This document shows, in pieces, positions 14,039 through 22,145 of a DNA stretch of 64,000 nt. The stretch comes from Nitrospiraceae bacterium. GTDB lineage: Bacteria; Nitrospirota; Thermodesulfovibrionia; UBA6902. The stretch is taken from positions 1 through 64,000 of the forward strand of contig QZJG01000030.1 in assembly GCA_003599275.1 (NCBI GenBank), in the 5' to 3' direction. A program made the translations under genes and the position numbers. The notes under the pieces are model-generated. The model worked only from the letters and a program-made list of their open reading frames with translations, was not told the origin of the DNA and searched no databases. Position 1 is the stretch's first letter. Every line of letters starts with the position of its first letter.

Positions 14039-14839
14039 ATGGAAAAAAGGGCCTTTGAAAGAATACCCACAAGCATGAAGGCGGATTTGCAATGCGCCGG
14101 CACGGAGCACCACGGGACGATCAGAAACCTCTCTGAAAACGGAATGTTCATCAGTATGAAAAAGACGTTCTTCCCCTTTGACTCTCACCTCGGAATATCT
14201 ATCCCTTTGAGGGAAGAAAGACTGGATGTTCACGGCAGGGTCAGCAGGCTTGTAGAGAGAGGCGATATCTATGACGGCATCGGCGTTGAAATCCTGCAGC
14301 CTCCTCCTGCCTATCTGGAGTTTATAAACAGGCTCAAATGGAACCCCGCAAAACGTCTGAAAACGACGGCAAGAGAACTTAAGACATTTATTTGCGGGAT
14401 ATGCAATCATGTCGCGTTTGATTTTGCGCCGATAGAATGCCCCGTCTGCCACGCGTCGATAGAGAATTTCGAGAAAAATCCCGAGGCCGTAAAAAAACCG
14501 GCAGAGGACGGCACTCTCAGCGAGATCGAAAAAAAGCATGTCCCCATAATAACGGTCCTGAAAGAGCCCAGGCTGGTCCCGGAGAGGCAGGGGATTGATA
14601 TACATATCAGGGTCGGAGAAGTCGAACATCTTATGGAAAAGGAAGACTACATTACGTTTATAGATTTTTATTTTGACGATCTCCATGTCAACCGGAAATG
14701 TCTCGGGAGGGTAAGCTTTATGTGCAGGAGGATGCAGCCTGCAGCCACGTTCCACCTGAATACCCAGACTTCCGGGATCATTACCATTCTTTCCAATTGC
14801 TGCGCTCACGGAAGCTGGATCGCCGAAGCCAACATTTGA
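14039..14839 (+). CDS. PilZ - rubredoxin-like - desulfoferrodoxin/SOR-like fusion protein
   Basis: 266 residues, cytosolic. Residues 1-100 are a PilZ domain with both c-di-GMP motifs: RxxxR (Arg4, Arg8) and NxSxxG (Asn30, Ser32, Gly35). Residues 117-145 form a rubredoxin/zinc-ribbon-like knuckle with Cys119, Cys122, Cys134 and Cys137. Residues 160-266 resemble the superoxide reductase (desulfoferrodoxin C-terminal) domain: KHVP with His167, EHLM with His197, and the C-terminal Cys254-x-x-His257-Gly matching the SOR CNxHG. The second histidine of the family HPMxxxH motif is replaced by Asp203, so the iron centre may be altered or lost. It lies between glnE and glnA. I know of no described protein of this architecture. 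Function is open: a redox- or superoxide-responsive c-di-GMP effector is one reading. Confidence 0.7.
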   Translation: MEKRAFERIPTSMKADLQCAGTEHHGTIRNLSENGMFISMKKTFFPFDSHLGISIPLREERLDVHGRVSRLVERGDIYDGIGVEILQPPPAYLEFINRLKWNPAKRLKTTARELKTFICGICNHVAFDFAPIECPVCHASIENFEKNPEAVKKPAEDGTLSEIEKKHVPIITVLKEPRLVPERQGIDIHIRVGEVEHLMEKEDYITFIDFYFDDLHVNRKCLGRVSFMCRRMQPAATFHLNTQTSGIITILSNCCAHGSWIAEANI

Positions 14840-14933: not shown

Positions 14934-16265
14934 ATGGACAAGCCCAGGGACAAAAAAGACGTTTTAGAGCTGGTGGAAAAAAATAACGTGAAATTTATCA
15001 GGCTGTGGTTTACGGATATCCTCGGACAACTGAAAAGTTTTGCCATTACAAGCGAGGAGCTCGAAGGGGCGTTTGACGAGGGGATGGGTTTTGACGGCTC
15101 ATCGATAAAAGGTTTTGCACGGATCGATGAGAGCGACATGATAGCAAAGCCTGATCCCTCGACCTTCCAGATCGTGCCGTGGAGGCCGAAGGAAAAGGCG
15201 GTGGCGAGGATGTTTTGCGATATCCTGAACCCCGACGGCACTCCGTATGAAGGAGACCCCCGTTATGCTCTGAAGAGGAATCTAAGCCGGTTGAATGAAA
15301 AAGGCTATACGCTTTATCTCGGCCCGGAGCTCGAATTTTTCTACTTCAGAAATGAGAAGGGCACTGAAGTCCTGGATGAGGGGGGATACTTTGATCTCAC
15401 GACACTGGATGCCGGAAGCGACCTGAGGAGGGAGACGGTACTTGCGCTTGAAGAGATGGGAATAAAAGTGGAATACTCCCATCACGAGGTCGCGCCTTCT
15501 CAGCATGAGATCGACCTGCGTTACGCGGACGCCCTGTCAATGGCGGACAACGTCATGACCTACAGGGTGGTAGTGAAGGAGGTGGCTTCAAAATACGGCT
15601 GTTATGCCACCTTCATGCCCAAGCCGATGTTCGGACAGAACGGGAGCGGGATGCACACGCACCAGTCTCTTTTTAAGGGCGACAGGAACGCTTTTTTTGA
15701 CGCCAAGGACAAATATTATCTCTCCGGCATCGCCAGGCAGTACATCGCCGGTTTATTAAAACATGCCCCGGAAATCACAGCGATTTGCAACCAGTGGGTC
15801 AATTCATACAAAAGGCTTGTGCCGGGATATGAGGCCCCCGTTTACATAGCCTGGGCAAGGAGAAACCGTTCAGCGCTCGTAAGGGTCCCTCTGTACAAGC
15901 CCGGAAAAGAAAAGGCCACGAGGATAGAGCTTCGTTCGCCGGACCCGGCATGTAATCCCTATCTTGCCTTCTCCGTCATGCTCGCAGCGGGACTGGAAGG
16001 CATCGAAAAAGGTTATGAGCTTTCCGAGCCGGTGGAAAAAGATATTTACCATCTCGGCGAAGAGGAAAAGAAGGAATTGCGGATAACGTCTCTCCCCGGA
16101 AGTTTAATAGAGGCCGTGGAGACAGCTGAAAAAAGCGAGGTCGTCCGCAAGGCTTTAGGCGATCACATATTCAACAATTTCATCGAGAGCAAGAAAATAG
16201 AATGGGACGACTACAGGATCAAGATACATCCCTATGAGATAGAGAGATATCTGCCGATTTTATAA
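14934..16265 (+). CDS. glnA: Glutamine synthetase type I (GSI-alpha-like)
   Basis: ATP-dependent synthesis of glutamine from glutamate and ammonia. The 443-residue length and lack of the GSI-beta insertion place it with GSI-alpha. Signatures are FDGSSIKGF, GMHTHQSLF, NPYLAFSVMLAAG and IELRSPDPACNPY. Arg63 in GFARIDESDM matches the arginine that GSI-alpha enzymes use for feedback inhibition by glutamine. Tyr372 in KDIYHLGEEE aligns with the region of the GSI-beta adenylylation tyrosine, notable because glnE is 1 kb upstream. It has its own good promoter at 14861-14889. Confidence 0.95.
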   Translation: MDKPRDKKDVLELVEKNNVKFIRLWFTDILGQLKSFAITSEELEGAFDEGMGFDGSSIKGFARIDESDMIAKPDPSTFQIVPWRPKEKAVARMFCDILNPDGTPYEGDPRYALKRNLSRLNEKGYTLYLGPELEFFYFRNEKGTEVLDEGGYFDLTTLDAGSDLRRETVLALEEMGIKVEYSHHEVAPSQHEIDLRYADALSMADNVMTYRVVVKEVASKYGCYATFMPKPMFGQNGSGMHTHQSLFKGDRNAFFDAKDKYYLSGIARQYIAGLLKHAPEITAICNQWVNSYKRLVPGYEAPVYIAWARRNRSALVRVPLYKPGKEKATRIELRSPDPACNPYLAFSVMLAAGLEGIEKGYELSEPVEKDIYHLGEEEKKELRITSLPGSLIEAVETAEKSEVVRKALGDHIFNNFIESKKIEWDDYRIKIHPYEIERYLPIL

Positions 16266-16311: not shown

Positions 16312-16340
16312 TTGACAGGTCTCCGATTGTGTGATAGATA
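16312..16340 (+). promoter_or_regulatory. Promoter for the riboswitch transcript
   Basis: A perfect TTGACA (16312-16317) is followed after 17 bases by TAGATA (16335-16340, weak -10). The predicted start near 16347 falls about 11 bases before the aptamer, a typical geometry. Confidence 0.55.
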
Positions 16341-16357
16341 TTAATCAAGAAGAAAAA

Positions 16358-16450
16358 CTGCCACCCCAAAAAAGGTAAAGTACGGGAAACCGTATGGCAC
16401 AAAGCCACCTTTCCGGTTAAAACCGGAACGAGGGGTTACTGGAGTGGCAG
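16358..16450 (+). ncRNA. Cyclic di-GMP-I (GEMM-I) riboswitch aptamer
   Basis: Helix P1 pairs CTGCCAC (16358-16364) with GTGGCAG (16444-16450). The P2 arm TACGG-GAAA-CCGTA (16381-16394) carries the GAAA tetraloop that docks in GEMM-I. The conserved GGCACAAAGCCAC core follows. The P3 arm TTCCGGTT-AA-AACCGGAA (16411-16428) is next, and the 3' strand GAGGGGTTACTGG matches the family's GGGGTTAC element. All GEMM-I landmarks are in order. It reads toward the secreted amidohydrolase at 16630. Confidence 0.9.
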
Positions 16451-16460
16451 ATAAGAAATT

Positions 16461-16490
16461 AAAGCCTGTTCAGAAATGAACAGGCTTTTG
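16461..16490 (+). terminator. Terminator hairpin / expression platform of the c-di-GMP riboswitch
   Basis: Perfect 12-bp arms (16461-16472 and 16477-16488) closed by a GAAA loop and followed by a short T stretch. It starts 10 bases after the aptamer and about 140 bases before the gene, so ligand-controlled transcription termination is likely. Whether c-di-GMP turns the gene on or off cannot be read directly. Confidence 0.75.
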
Positions 16491-16629
16491 AGTTATATGA
16501 ATATCCCCGCATAACGTAGATAGCCTTTTTCCCTCTTCCCCGGAAAGTTTATTTTAATAGCCGCGAGATGCTAAAATATTTTTGCCGGGTGGCCCCAAAG
16601 GTCACTCCGGCGAGGAGTGCAGTTGACGT

Positions 16630-17505
16630 ATGAAAAGCTTTAAGACCTGGCCGAGGGTCGCCTTCAGTCTGATCATTCTGCTTTCGGCAGCAGCATCCGG
16701 CGGCTATTCGTATGAAATCGGAAGCGCCGGTTATGTACCCCGCCTTGAGAGGCAGACACAGGCCGGTAGTCAATCAGTGGAAGATATCAGACAGATCGAA
16801 TACAACGAAATAAAGTACGATGAGGCAAGTGAAAACTACTATGGGTTCATCAAGGGGAAAATTCCCGTTTTGATCTCCGCCCCTCATGGCGCCATGCACT
16901 TCAGGAGAAGAGAAAATCGATGGAAGGGGGAGGATGAATATACTGCGTCCCTGGCTATCAAACTTGGACAACTGACAGGCGCCCATGTCATCTATGTTAA
17001 AAATAAAACGATGGAAGATCCTAATAACGATCTCACGTCCGAATATAAAAATGCGGTAGCAGAGGCGGTCAAGAAGTACAATATCAAATTCCTTCTGGAC
17101 CTTCATGGGGCGGATGAGGACCGGCCTTTCAAAGTCGATATAGGGACGATACATGATGAGCTTCTGAAAAGCTCCTGTCCCACGTTCAGGGGGACCATAG
17201 GAGAGGCCTTCTCTGATTTTGAGCCTCAGCCTTTCAATAAAAGATTTGGCGCAAAAACTCCTAACACAGTAACTTTTTTTGCAAGAAACAAATTGGGTAT
17301 CGAGGCAGCGCAGGTCGAAATCAATGCCAGATACAGGATCGTGGAAAGGAAACCGGACAGCGCCAAAGCAAAGAGCGGCATAAAACCCCATTTCAAAGCC
17401 GATGAAAAGGATGTCCTGAATTTGCTTGCGAGGCTGCAACGGACGGTCCACGAGATCAACCTGAAGATAGAAAGAGACAACAAACTTATAAATACTCCAG
17501 GTTAA
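16630..17505 (+). CDS. Secreted N-formylglutamate-amidohydrolase-like / poly-gamma-glutamate hydrolase-like protein
   Basis: 291 residues with a signal peptide (hydrophobic run about 10-24). Motifs ISAPHGAMH (His86), EDEYT (Glu101) and LLDLHGA (Asp157, His159) resemble the metal-binding core of N-formylglutamate amidohydrolases and related zinc amidases. Because it is convergent with pgsB-pgsC-pgsW, a role in cleaving gamma-glutamyl polymer is a reasonable inference; it is not shown by the sequence. It is preceded by a c-di-GMP-I riboswitch. A GAGGAG site before the ATG sits in a small hairpin (16603-16619), which could limit translation. Confidence 0.65.
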   Translation: MKSFKTWPRVAFSLIILLSAAASGGYSYEIGSAGYVPRLERQTQAGSQSVEDIRQIEYNEIKYDEASENYYGFIKGKIPVLISAPHGAMHFRRRENRWKGEDEYTASLAIKLGQLTGAHVIYVKNKTMEDPNNDLTSEYKNAVAEAVKKYNIKFLLDLHGADEDRPFKVDIGTIHDELLKSSCPTFRGTIGEAFSDFEPQPFNKRFGAKTPNTVTFFARNKLGIEAAQVEINARYRIVERKPDSAKAKSGIKPHFKADEKDVLNLLARLQRTVHEINLKIERDNKLINTPG

Positions 17506-18638
17506 ATCATCAATTCCGGAGGTCCCTGGTCTTCCTCGCGGGAGACCGTATGCATCATCCTGAAACCCCTGTCCGACCGCACAAAGAAATAGAGGCAGAA
17601 GGAAATCCCGATCAGAATACCGGCAGCCAGCCATCGGTTATATTCTCTCTTTAAATAAATGCTTCCCTCTCCGGCCTCGGGCATGTCCGAAGGGGCGACA
17701 GGCAGCCCGTAAAGCCCGGCCAGTCTCCCGATATTCCCAAGATGGATGACCGGGACCTCTTCACGGAGGAACCTCAGGATGACCGAATCCATATCTTTGG
17801 GCAATGATTGTTCCTGTGAGATGACCCCCGGTTTCAGAAAAATCTTGTATGGCCTGGTCCCGGCGGAGGCGACGCCCCCACCCACATTTATAAATACCAC
17901 CGGCGACCGGTCTTTAAGATAGACCGACATCCTGGCATCGATATTCTCACGGATGGTTTTTGCTTCAATCATTCCCAGACCGTTTCTTTTGACGGCCTGA
18001 AGGACCAGTTCCCGGCCTTTTTCCGTCATCTCTTTTCCCCGGTCACTCCGTCCGCCAATGGAAGAGGCCACTGAGCGGAAAGGGAAGAGGCCTTTTTTGT
18101 AGAGAAGATATTCCATGTCGATCCAGAGGAAATCCGGATCATTTGCCCCCCACTGGGACCCGCTTGCGCCGGAGATGATCGTGGGCCTCAACTTAAGTGT
18201 TGCAAGTGCTGCGCAAACGGAAATATTCAGCGCGGGGAAGGAGCCGGAAAAGCCCACTGCAACTTTGTCCCCCTCTTTAACACCTGACTTCATCAGAAGG
18301 TCTACCACGACAGCGGCAAAATTGGGATTGATCGTGGTCTGTTTTGCCTGGAGATCTCCGACGTCACTCGTGACCGGCGTGACCAGTGCCCCTATCAACC
18401 CTGATTGTGCCGGGTCTGTTTCCGGGTCGATATTCAATCCGCGCCCCAACCGTTCAAACCGGATTGCTTCCATCGCCTCCGAGGCCAATCTTGCCGCTGC
18501 TAATTTCTCGGCGTAATAGGGTTGTCTGACGGTGATCTGAAGCGTCTCTGCGGCAATAAGCCCCACAAGGGCAAAGCATGCAATAAAAACGTTTGCGCTT
18601 AGAGGCAGGCTTTGGGGTCTCCAGTAGACCTTTTTCAT
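17502..18638 (-). CDS. Poly-gamma-glutamate system protein (PgsW-like)
   Basis: 378 residues with hydrophobic segments near the N terminus (about 13-31) and C terminus (about 340-360), leaving a large central extracytoplasmic domain. The centre contains VAVGFSGSFPALN, TIISGASGSQWGANDP and VFINVGGGVAS. It matches the protein family regularly found after pgsB and pgsC and named for the poly-gamma-glutamate system. It starts four bases inside the end of pgsC, so the three genes form one tight operon. The biochemical role is unknown; polymer export or processing is inferred. Confidence 0.8.
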   Translation of the reverse strand: MKKVYWRPQSLPLSANVFIACFALVGLIAAETLQITVRQPYYAEKLAAARLASEAMEAIRFERLGRGLNIDPETDPAQSGLIGALVTPVTSDVGDLQAKQTTINPNFAAVVVDLLMKSGVKEGDKVAVGFSGSFPALNISVCAALATLKLRPTIISGASGSQWGANDPDFLWIDMEYLLYKKGLFPFRSVASSIGGRSDRGKEMTEKGRELVLQAVKRNGLGMIEAKTIRENIDARMSVYLKDRSPVVFINVGGGVASAGTRPYKIFLKPGVISQEQSLPKDMDSVILRFLREEVPVIHLGNIGRLAGLYGLPVAPSDMPEAGEGSIYLKREYNRWLAAGILIGISFCLYFFVRSDRGFRMMHTVSREEDQGPPELMI

Positions 18639-19090
18639 GGGGCCAGCCTCCCGCCGAGAAAGACAATCAGAACAAGGCGTACGATAACAGAAGAGATGGT
18701 CAGTGCGCCGAGGGTTTCTGGGATGCCCCGGCGATCAAACCAGATTGCGATAAGACCGGGGATGATGAACCCGATGACCGAAAATTCCGCATTCCCGAAC
18801 TCCACGGACGCGGTGACAAAATACTGTATTACCATTCCTGTCAGGTAGCCGGCCAGAATAAGAAGGATGATTCGCCGCCTTCCATACAGGACCATGACCG
18901 AGGAAAGGAGATGCACCAGGACGAAAGAGACAAAGCCCGCACCCACGGTAAGCAGCGCCGAGAGAGGTTTGGTCAGATGAAGCGCGATATATCCCGGAAC
19001 GACCAGTCCCCCGGCCGTCAGACCGAAGATTTCGGACAGAAGAAGACTCACCACGAGCCCCACCCCGATTGAGACCGGAAGGAGTTCCAT
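18635..19090 (-). CDS. pgsC: Poly-gamma-glutamate biosynthesis protein PgsC/CapC
   Basis: 151-residue inner-membrane protein with about four or five hydrophobic helices. The N-terminal GLTAGGLVVPGYIAL and the RRRIILLILAGYLTG region are typical of CapC/PgsC, the membrane partner of the PgsB synthetase in gamma-linked glutamate polymerisation and export. Its start shares the boundary base with the end of pgsB and its stop overlaps the next gene by four bases. Confidence 0.93.
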   Translation of the reverse strand: MELLPVSIGVGLVVSLLLSEIFGLTAGGLVVPGYIALHLTKPLSALLTVGAGFVSFVLVHLLSSVMVLYGRRRIILLILAGYLTGMVIQYFVTASVEFGNAEFSVIGFIIPGLIAIWFDRRGIPETLGALTISSVIVRLVLIVFLGGRLAP

Positions 19091-20286
19091 TACAAATGCT
19101 CCTTCAGGGTCGCGCGGTTCCGGAAGAACCGGACCAGACTGAGGCCCTGACCCTTGATGTTGGCCATGCCTGCTACCAGACAGGATGCGCCGCCCAGCTC
19201 GATAATCGTCTCGAAGATGTCGCTGTCGCTGCGATGTTCGGCAAACAGGACTTTCCCCATCGGTAAACCTGCGGAATCCGCCTCACGGGCAAAGAAGTAG
19301 GTCCCCGACCCGATGAGGATATAATAGTCGGCCGGCTCCCATTCTACGCATATCCTTCCAAACTGTTGAGACCGGGCAGGCCGGTCTTCCCGGCAGTTGA
19401 ATATTGCGATCCTCTTCTCCACTTCCGGAAAACGCCCGATAGCCATCTCCCAGATTTGCCGGGTGGACTCCGGATCGTTGGCTGAAAAACCGTTCACAAA
19501 GTAAATATGACGCCCGAAAAAACGGACATGAGAAATGGTTGTAGCGCCTGTATCGGGCACGGTTTTCCACATACCCTTTAATGCGGTCTGCCGGTCCACT
19601 CCAATGTCCTGACAGACCCGAAGGGCCAGGGCAACATTGGCCTTGTGTTCTACATAGGGAAAATTCGACATTTCTTCATCAGTGACCTTGTTGATGTCCT
19701 CCCCGTTAACTCCGATCAGTTTGCTCTTTCTGTCCTGAACAGCTTCTCTGAAAATGTCCAGGTTTCTCTGTTCTGCAGTATAGACCCTCCCCCCCACCGG
19801 TATCGTCCCGGCCAGGGCCAGTGCAACGTCCTTTTCTTCGGGGCCCATAACGTCCAGATGGTCCTCGCGGGCATTGGTGATGACCCCGTGCGTGGCATTG
19901 ACGAGCATAGTCTCACTCAGCCATTGATAGTTCGGCTGAAGGGCCATGCATTCAACCACGAGGGCCTGCGCCCCGTAGGCCTTTGCAACAGAGACAATCC
20001 TCGCCTGTTCGATCAGTTTCGCCCCTCCGGGTCTGAAGACCGGATACTCCGAGCCATCGGGTAAAATCATCCGAGCCAATGTCCCTGTGGTCTTGGCGCA
20101 GGTAACGATCCCCTTTTCGCGAAGCGCGCCGGCAATCAGACGGGTCACACTGGATTTTCCCCTTGTGCCATTGACATGGATGCGGACCGGGACCCCGGAA
20201 AGATCGCGCCTGAGCCGGGATGCTTCCCATACGCCCAATATGATAATCAACAAAGTTATAAGAACAAGATACTCGCTGCCGACCAA
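19090..20286 (-). CDS. pgsB: Poly-gamma-glutamate synthetase PgsB/CapB
   Basis: Mur-ligase-like ATP-dependent amide ligase that joins glutamates through the gamma-carboxyl. After a membrane anchor (about residues 6-20) comes the P-loop HVNGTRGKSS (about 37-46), then VVECMALQPNYQ and THGVITNAREDHLDVMG. The frame is open to 20454, but the extra N terminus is unlike the family. A TTG at 20286 preceded by GGGAGGGAGAA gives 398 residues, the usual length, with the anchor at the very start. First gene of the pgsBCW operon. Confidence 0.93.
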   Translation of the reverse strand: MVGSEYLVLITLLIIILGVWEASRLRRDLSGVPVRIHVNGTRGKSSVTRLIAGALREKGIVTCAKTTGTLARMILPDGSEYPVFRPGGAKLIEQARIVSVAKAYGAQALVVECMALQPNYQWLSETMLVNATHGVITNAREDHLDVMGPEEKDVALALAGTIPVGGRVYTAEQRNLDIFREAVQDRKSKLIGVNGEDINKVTDEEMSNFPYVEHKANVALALRVCQDIGVDRQTALKGMWKTVPDTGATTISHVRFFGRHIYFVNGFSANDPESTRQIWEMAIGRFPEVEKRIAIFNCREDRPARSQQFGRICVEWEPADYYILIGSGTYFFAREADSAGLPMGKVLFAEHRSDSDIFETIIELGGASCLVAGMANIKGQGLSLVRFFRNRATLKEHL

Positions 20287-20338
20287 TTCTCCCTCCCTTG
20301 TCTCTGATCTTCGACTCCAGAGAGCGCGTCTTGGAAAA

Positions 20339-20366
20339 AGTATATCAGATAAAATTCTTAAGGCAA
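20339..20366 (-). promoter_or_regulatory. Promoter of pgsB-pgsC-pgsW
   Basis: On the minus strand TTGCCT (20366-20361) and TATACT (20344-20339) are 16 bases apart, giving a predicted start near 20332 and a leader of about 45 bases. It overlaps back to back with the candidate ggt promoter. Confidence 0.5.
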
Positions 20367-20367
20367 C

Positions 20368-20396
20368 TTGACGCTGCCTGGAATCGGGTGCACAAT
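20368..20396 (+). promoter_or_regulatory. Promoter of the gamma-glutamyltransferase gene
   Basis: TTGACG (20368-20373) and CACAAT (20391-20396) are 17 bases apart. Transcription would begin about 5 bases before ATG 20409, which has no good ribosome-binding site, so the message may be nearly leaderless. Confidence 0.45.
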
Positions 20397-20408
20397 TTGG
20401 ATAAGACA

Positions 20409-22145
20409 ATGGACGATTCCGATTCCATGAAAAACAGAAAGAAGCTCTGGACACGGCTGATTCTGACAGTTGTTGCTACGATGGTTTTTGTCCTCCTCAT
20501 TCAGGTCATCGTCTCCAGATGGGACCAGGGCCGGATGCCGGTGAAGGAAAAGCGGATTGCGGCGACCTCCGGGTCCGGCATGGTGGCCACAGCCAATCAT
20601 TACGCTACAAAGGCCGGTGTTGAAATCCTGAAAAAAGGGGGTAATGCCGTTGATGCTGCCGTTGCCGCAGCTTTTGTTCTTGGTGTTGTCGAACCGTTTG
20701 CTTCGGGAATCGGGGGCGGAGGGTTCATGCTCATTTATACGGCAAAGAGTAATCAGGTCGTGACGATCGACTATCGTGAGACCGCGCCGCTCAGGGCTGC
20801 CCCGGAAATGTATCAAACCTCTTCCGGTGAGGCGATGAAAGACCGGATGAAAGAAGGCCATATGGCTGTGGCCATACCCGGGACCGTGGCCGGGCTTGCA
20901 ATGGCGTTAAGCGATTACGGGACAATGGATTTAAAAAGCGTAATGGGGCCGGCCATTAAAATTGCTGAAGACGGACACGAAGTCGGCAGGCTCCTGAATA
21001 CGATGATGAAGAAAAATTTCCGGAAGCTTTCAATGTTTCCCGCAACCGCCGGGATATATCTGAAAGACGGACTTCCTTATGAGGTCGGCGACCGGTTATA
21101 CCTCAAGGACCTGGCCGGGACTTATCGTCTTATTGCTGAAAACGGCCCGGCAGTCTTCTACAGCGGGGCCATAGCAGAAGCCATTGAAAAAGAGATGGCA
21201 GGCAAAGGGCTGATTACCGTAAAAGATCTGGCAGGTTATCACCCTGTATTAAGGGCTCCGGTCAAAGGAAGTTATCGCGGCAGTGAGATCGTTTCGATGG
21301 GACCGCCCAGCTCAGGGGGGACCCATATTATCCAGCTCCTGAATATCCTCGAAGGACATGATATCGCCCGCCTCGGTCTCAGCAATGCTGAAAGCGTCTC
21401 TCTCATGGCCGAAGCAATGAAGAGAATATTCTCTGACAGGGCGAGGTTCATGGGAGATCCCGACTTTGTGAAGGTACCCGTAGAAGAACTGATTTCCAAA
21501 GAGTATGCGGAAAAATTGAGAAAAGAAATGAGCGCTGGCAAATTAAATGAAAAGAACGCTGCGGGTAATGTCGCATTGTACGAGTCCGATCAGACAAGCC
21601 ATATCTCTGTCGCGGACAATGAAGGTAATCTGGTAGCATTGACCCAGACGGTCAATTCCTTCTTCGGTTCCGGTGTGGTTGTGCCCGGAACGGGGATATT
21701 GCTGAATAATGAGATGAATGATTTTGCCCCGGAAAAAGATGGACCGAATTCGATCAGACCCGGGAAAAGACCTTTGAGCAGCATGTCTCCCACCCTGGTG
21801 CTCAAAGACGGCAGGCCGTACCTGACCATCGGGATGCCCGGCGCCACCCGCATTATAACTGTGCTGCCCCAGATACTTATGAATCTGATCGACCATGAAA
21901 TGAATATTCAGGAGGCGATAAATGCGCCGAGGGTCCACAGCATGGCAGGCCGGGAAATATTCATGGAATCCCGCATACCGCAAGAGGTCCGGGACGATCT
22001 GGTCCGCGCGGGATACAGGCTTGTCGTTAAAAAAGATTTCGATCTCTATTTCGGCGGCGCGCAGGGAGTGATGATAGATACTGAGACGGGAATGCGTTAC
22101 GGCGGCGCCGACCCGAGACGTGAAGGGGCTGTGATCGGGTATTGA
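20409..22145 (+). CDS. ggt: Gamma-glutamyltransferase (GGT/CapD family)
   Basis: Ntn-hydrolase that transfers or hydrolyses gamma-glutamyl groups outside the cytoplasm. An N-terminal membrane segment or uncleaved signal (about residues 15-34) is followed by GGNAVDAAVAAAF and the FASGIGGGGFML stretch. The self-processing nucleophile is Thr396 in DQTSHISVAD, with NSFFGSGVVVPGTGILLNNEMNDF after it. The 578-residue length is normal. The frame is open from 20298, overlapping pgsB; ATG 20409 (or 20427) is preferred since the anchor then lies at the N terminus. Divergent from pgsB, it could trim or attach poly-gamma-glutamate as CapD does, or serve glutathione turnover. Confidence 0.92.
   Translation: MDDSDSMKNRKKLWTRLILTVVATMVFVLLIQVIVSRWDQGRMPVKEKRIAATSGSGMVATANHYATKAGVEILKKGGNAVDAAVAAAFVLGVVEPFASGIGGGGFMLIYTAKSNQVVTIDYRETAPLRAAPEMYQTSSGEAMKDRMKEGHMAVAIPGTVAGLAMALSDYGTMDLKSVMGPAIKIAEDGHEVGRLLNTMMKKNFRKLSMFPATAGIYLKDGLPYEVGDRLYLKDLAGTYRLIAENGPAVFYSGAIAEAIEKEMAGKGLITVKDLAGYHPVLRAPVKGSYRGSEIVSMGPPSSGGTHIIQLLNILEGHDIARLGLSNAESVSLMAEAMKRIFSDRARFMGDPDFVKVPVEELISKEYAEKLRKEMSAGKLNEKNAAGNVALYESDQTSHISVADNEGNLVALTQTVNSFFGSGVVVPGTGILLNNEMNDFAPEKDGPNSIRPGKRPLSSMSPTLVLKDGRPYLTIGMPGATRIITVLPQILMNLIDHEMNIQEAINAPRVHSMAGREIFMESRIPQEVRDDLVRAGYRLVVKKDFDLYFGGAQGVMIDTETGMRYGGADPRREGAVIGY

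Follow-up and report, generated by a model that had tools for sequence, protein, structure and literature searches.

A c-di-GMP-I riboswitch aptamer and an apparently weakly coupled terminator-like hairpin precede a probably exported hydrolase gene beside pgsBCW in a Nitrospiraceae bacterium

To gain insight into a candidate riboswitch-controlled locus of a Nitrospiraceae bacterium, we analyzed a stretch of 64,000 nucleotides (hereafter the window; positions 1 to 64,000 of contig QZJG01000030.1, assembly GCA_003599275.1), in particular the leader region between the end of glnA at 16265 and an ORF located at 16630-17505 on the plus strand. This ORF encodes a 291 amino acid protein that, based on its distant family and predicted fold, resembles zinc hydrolases of the N-formylglutamate amidohydrolase (FGase) fold. 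Both the ORF and its signal-peptide-like N-terminus are as described in the initial annotation of this region, and the same is true of its convergent orientation with three minus-strand ORFs, namely pgsW, encoding a poly-gamma-glutamate system protein (17502-18638; TIGR04332, 325 bits), pgsC/capC (18635-19090; TIGR04011 and PF14102), and pgsB, encoding poly-gamma-glutamate synthase (19090-20454; TIGR04012, 457 bits over residues 63-444). These are followed on the plus strand by the gamma-glutamyltransferase gene ggt (20373-22145; TIGR00066, 542 bits). The divergent ggt and pgsB have overlapping mechanically called ORFs (20289-20454), suggesting that pgsB probably begins within its listed ORF, near 20290. 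Just upstream of glnA, 14039-14839 encodes a fusion of a PilZ domain and a desulfoferrodoxin-type domain, together with a weak rubredoxin-like segment that falls below the Pfam cut-off; this protein may combine a c-di-GMP receptor with a module resembling superoxide reductase.

The leader carries a c-di-GMP-I riboswitch aptamer. A cmscan search matched RF01051 at 16364-16443 on the plus strand, over the full model (1-87), with 63.1 bits (E = 5.3e-10) against a gathering cut-off of 35 bits, which bears out the GEMM-I element proposed in the initial annotation; it is one of five RF01051 matches above the cut-off in the draft genome. The Rfam model does not include P1, which we added from folding: on the plus strand, its P strand (16358-16368) pairs with its A strand (16440-16450) with one C-A mismatch, and the aptamer so completed spans 16358-16450, exactly the extent given before, with the GAAA tetraloop of P2 in place. 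The fold of the leader has a free energy of -62.2 kcal/mol (z = -6.7 versus shuffles). The window aptamer thus shares with RF01051 the core, the P1-P2-P3 architecture, the GAAA tetraloop and the G at the discriminating position, but differs in a P1 flank of CCC/UGGA rather than the CGA/GAA common in relatives, and in combining a very stable P1 with a weak expression platform.

The base that discriminates between c-di-GMP and cGAMP corresponds to position 16374 on the plus strand (column 11 of the Rfam alignment), which we take to be position 20 of the published numbering, and is a G. An A20G variant has been described to change selectivity from cGAMP to c-di-GMP (PMC6456294). An aptamer of the c-di-GMP type is expected from the G at this position, and a cGAMP-type aptamer was rejected for the same reason. 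Judged from its sequence, this element is a genuine class I sensor RNA for c-di-GMP.

Downstream of the aptamer, positions 16461-16488 of the plus strand form an intrinsic-terminator-like hairpin, AAAGCCTGTTCA-GAAA-TGAACAGGCTTT, a perfect 12-bp repeat with a GAAA loop, a stem of -17.5 kcal/mol and a short U-tract (UUUUGAG). The perfect 12-bp stem claimed in the initial annotation is therefore present, but its role as a terminator is less clear-cut: the plus-strand tail has just four U's before GAG, and a consensus scan recognized the hairpin as a terminator solely for the minus strand. Since the U-tract is short, the hairpin may terminate poorly. Upstream of the aptamer, a putative sigma-70-like promoter can be read on the plus strand at 16312-16340, with a perfect -35 TTGACA (16312-16317), a 17-nt spacer and a -10 TAGATA (16335-16340) that is poor at best; the consensus scan called no plus-strand promoter for the leader.

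Closer to the gene, at around 16585-16621 on the plus strand, GCCGGGUGGCC and GGUCACUCCGGC could form a hairpin adjacent to a GAGGAG Shine-Dalgarno-like site. The fold of this hairpin is not significant versus shuffles (z -0.7), and a smaller CACUCC/GGAGUG hairpin could form as an alternative to it. We discarded the possibility of a further known RNA element in the segment from 16490 to 16630, which had no Rfam match worth keeping and no significant fold. Translational control through pairing of the P strand with GGAGUGCAG near the start codon was set aside, as the P strand remains in P1 in the fold of the full leader.

In Cd1, an OFF switch of Clostridioides difficile, the aptamer and the terminator are present together, and the structure that competes with them is an antiterminator formed between the 3' strand of P1 and the 5' arm of the terminator; in ON switches of the pilM type, the terminator overlaps the aptamer (PMC9262584). 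The window leader shares with Cd1 the coexistence of both elements, as P1 and the hairpin at 16461-16488 are found together in the minimum-energy fold, and an antiterminator would likewise have to be built from the 3' strand of P1 and the 5' arm of the terminator. The pilM GEMM-Ib cGAMP ON switch of Geobacter belongs to the same aptamer clan, but the window leader has no overlap between terminator and aptamer, and its discriminating base is a G rather than an A. As the strands do not overlap, a pilM-type ON switch was ruled out and an OFF design is the only one possible. Two other aptamers of the window genome (L001 and L005) have, by eye, terminators that overlap the aptamer, as in the pilM-like ON design.

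The sole candidate antiterminator of the window leader (16439-16473, plus strand) is weak, and would pair CUGGA-gu-GGC (16439-16448) with GCC-ug-UUCAG (16464-16473). As duplexes, this pairing reaches -10.4 kcal/mol versus -14.7 kcal/mol for P1, a difference of 4.3 in favor of P1, and in whole folds of a transcript truncated before the terminator 3' arm P1 is favored by 6.6 kcal/mol, values that come from free-energy models that ignore ligand, tertiary contacts and pausing and may be off by several kcal/mol for P1. In Cd1 the antiterminator forms without ligand, whereas in the window leader P1 is predicted to win without ligand, and no Cd1-like antiterminator that wins under these conditions and excludes P1 was found with the energy model. 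Once the P strand is removed, the complementarity between the A strand and the terminator 5' arm is greater than in 96.5% of shuffles.

To place these values in context, we surveyed 89 RF01051 matches from the window genome and 40 relatives, and compared 20 leaders whose terminators do not overlap the aptamer. Coupling was measured as the gain of the terminator 5' arm from upstream pairing in a transcript cut before the terminator 3' arm, with terminators set by hand because the automatic finder missed or mis-set several of them, mostly in overlapping ON-type leaders. The gain was 0.3 kcal/mol in the window leader, the lowest of the 20, and 0.8-10.8 kcal/mol in the other 19; the window leader had also come last in two earlier comparisons in which the terminators were set automatically. 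It should be noted that shuffled terminator arms are not beaten in about half of the related leaders either, so that low complementarity is no proof of a loss of function.

Seven leaders of relatives (L112, L116, L086, L082, L029, L120, and L077), which belong to the closest aptamer subtype (P1 ..GUGGC), have a terminator complementary to the aptamer's own 5' strand: CCGAAAGGGU can pair with ACCCUUUCGG, located in the 5' arm and loop of the terminator, at -19 to -25 kcal/mol. This antiterminator includes the binding-pocket G, and hence uses the pocket strand and not the P1 3' strand. A second group of leaders, recognized by eye, builds its antiterminator from the P1 3' strand (GAAACAG with CUGUUUC). 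The window leader carries CCCCAAAAAAGGU in place of CCGAAAGGGU along with an unrelated terminator; neither type of antiterminator is present in strength, and the best pairing partner of its 5' strand is P1. The initial annotation had assumed an effectively switched terminator, a claim that our analysis does not sustain, as the antiterminators of related leaders are missing and unliganded P1 outcompetes the sole candidate. In these models the on/off machinery of the window leader looks weak or broken, and the energies predict either an OFF leader for c-di-GMP, largely shut off also in the absence of ligand, or a relic that is decoupled. As a separate observation, the next ORF in L072, L083, and L102 starts one base after the aptamer match and encodes a large protein; these aptamers reach the start codon, suggesting translational control. 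Three set members, probably the same ones, match DUF4347.

The protein encoded at 16630-17505 matched no Pfam or NCBIfam family at 1e-3 and had no convincing PDB sequence match and no plasmid match. PF05013 did not match it even at E 10, and its distant relatives scored 21.5-28.3 bits on this family, below the cut-off of 28.9. A fold search with a structure model of moderate confidence (pLDDT 71.8) gave as top match the N-formylglutamate amidohydrolase 2q7s (E 3.1e-5), and the best TM-score was obtained with 2odf (Atu2144; 0.47/0.54). Residues H86, D102, H159 and a Glu in QxEIN are conserved. The protein thus resembles the PF05013 family (2q7s and 2odf) in its predicted fold and in conserved His/Asp/His/Glu positions, but differs in its lack of a PF05013 match, its signal-like N-terminus and an identity of ~11% to these structures. 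The earlier label of N-formylglutamate-amidohydrolase-like protein is retained at the level of predicted fold and distant family, and does not extend to a PF05013 match of the window protein itself. The model points to what is probably a zinc-dependent amide hydrolase of this fold, and the N-terminal sequence to a protein that is probably exported. Matches to the hydrolase are present in 4 of the 396 genomes of the phylum sample, three of which are distantly related and fall within a single genus.

Of these 396 genomes, just two have PgsW above the cut-off. Neither the hydrolase nor the pgs block is shared with the genus, and a conserved control link was not upheld; their adjacency may correspond to a coincidence of two acquisitions at one site. 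The initial annotation proposed that c-di-GMP represses a secreted poly-gamma-glutamate hydrolase and thereby shifts the balance towards capsule. The hydrolase gene adjoins and converges with pgsBCW, ggt is nearby, and the action of an FGase-type fold on glutamyl amides is chemically plausible. We nevertheless consider this explanation very unlikely, since the protein matched no poly-gamma-glutamate hydrolase family in Pfam or NCBIfam, the loci of its relatives contain no pgs genes (nor any riboswitch by Rfam), the other genome of the class that carries pgsBCW (G060) lacks such a hydrolase next to them, and the switch appears poorly coupled. In addition, the locus has pgsB, pgsC, pgsW, and ggt, the Bacillus system also has pgsA/capA, and PgsA/CapA (PF09587) was not found in this 88.6% complete draft genome. 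Adjacency is thus the sole tie to poly-gamma-glutamate, and the claim that the enzyme degrades this polymer was not upheld. A reading in which c-di-GMP acts via the class-I riboswitch to repress an exported hydrolase, and in which this enzyme trims the poly-gamma-glutamyl polymer of the adjacent pgsBCW, is likewise very unlikely. A text search, judged from titles and abstracts, found no paper describing a control link between a riboswitch, c-di-GMP and poly-gamma-glutamate, which is weak evidence of novelty. Taken together, the control and capsule interpretation of the initial annotation is at best partly supported: what is sustained is a c-di-GMP-I aptamer with a hairpin behind it in the leader of a probably exported FGase-fold hydrolase adjacent to pgsBCW.

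The hairpin could also act chiefly as the terminator of glnA, with the aptamer lying in the glnA 3' region without a promoter of its own, given that no other plus-strand terminator was seen between the end of glnA and 16461 and that the scan called no plus-strand promoter. The TTGACA at 16312 is, however, fittingly spaced, and no c-di-GMP-I aptamer lies directly after glnA in the stretches of related genomes, which makes this explanation very unlikely. Inheritance of the aptamer together with glnA was rejected, as it is absent directly 3' of glnA in nine relatives' stretches (eight around glnA). In one relative, a c-di-GMP-I-GGC (RF03167) riboswitch variant above cut-off (L061:10959-11038) is located ~6 kb from the glnA of that genome and is not adjacent to it. 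Two readings remain. It is possible that the aptamer is a decoupled relic of an OFF switch in which the aptamer 5' strand was the pairing partner of the terminator; both this terminator and the complement to the pocket strand would since have changed, c-di-GMP may bind without controlling the gene, and the gene would be transcribed through leakage or from a promoter downstream of 16490. The pairing in the seven leaders of the closest subtype, replaced in the window by a different 5' strand and an unrelated terminator, is consistent with such a relic, as are the lowest coupling of the 20 leaders and the short U-tract, but the aptamer retains an intact P1 and core (63 bits), the residual complementarity of the A strand and the terminator arm speaks against it, and descent from that subtype would be deduced from ~62-69% identity of short RNAs. 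Slightly above it we rank a biased OFF attenuator located before a probably exported FGase-fold hydrolase acquired by the lineage, since the leader still has its aptamer core and P1 along with a residual antiterminator; we give this reading about an even chance of being correct.

In the biased OFF attenuator, c-di-GMP would stabilize P1, which would then withhold the A strand from the 5' arm of the terminator, so that the terminator hairpin would form and transcription would stop. Without ligand, much termination would occur anyway, as the antiterminator is a weak competitor of a strong P1; expression would be low and the effect of c-di-GMP small. The enzyme itself would probably cleave an amide, either in the cell envelope or extracellularly.

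The first ORFs behind c-di-GMP-I aptamers of this clade, which were chosen mechanically and in some cases are certainly wrong, often encode exported products, including multihaem cytochromes, fibronectin-type and other surface proteins, and proteins of polysaccharide export. A c-di-GMP-I leader such as that of the window is therefore ordinary in this clade, and we regard it as a rather unremarkable case of a familiar type of switch. If the proposed capsule control were true, it would tie c-di-GMP to the turnover of a poly-amino-acid capsule and link this biofilm signal to it. The comparative value of the locus lies in an aptamer and a terminator that persist while their coupling looks weak, beside sister leaders with clear antiterminators, which makes the window leader a testable contrast for the loss or rebuilding of riboswitch expression platforms after gene turnover.
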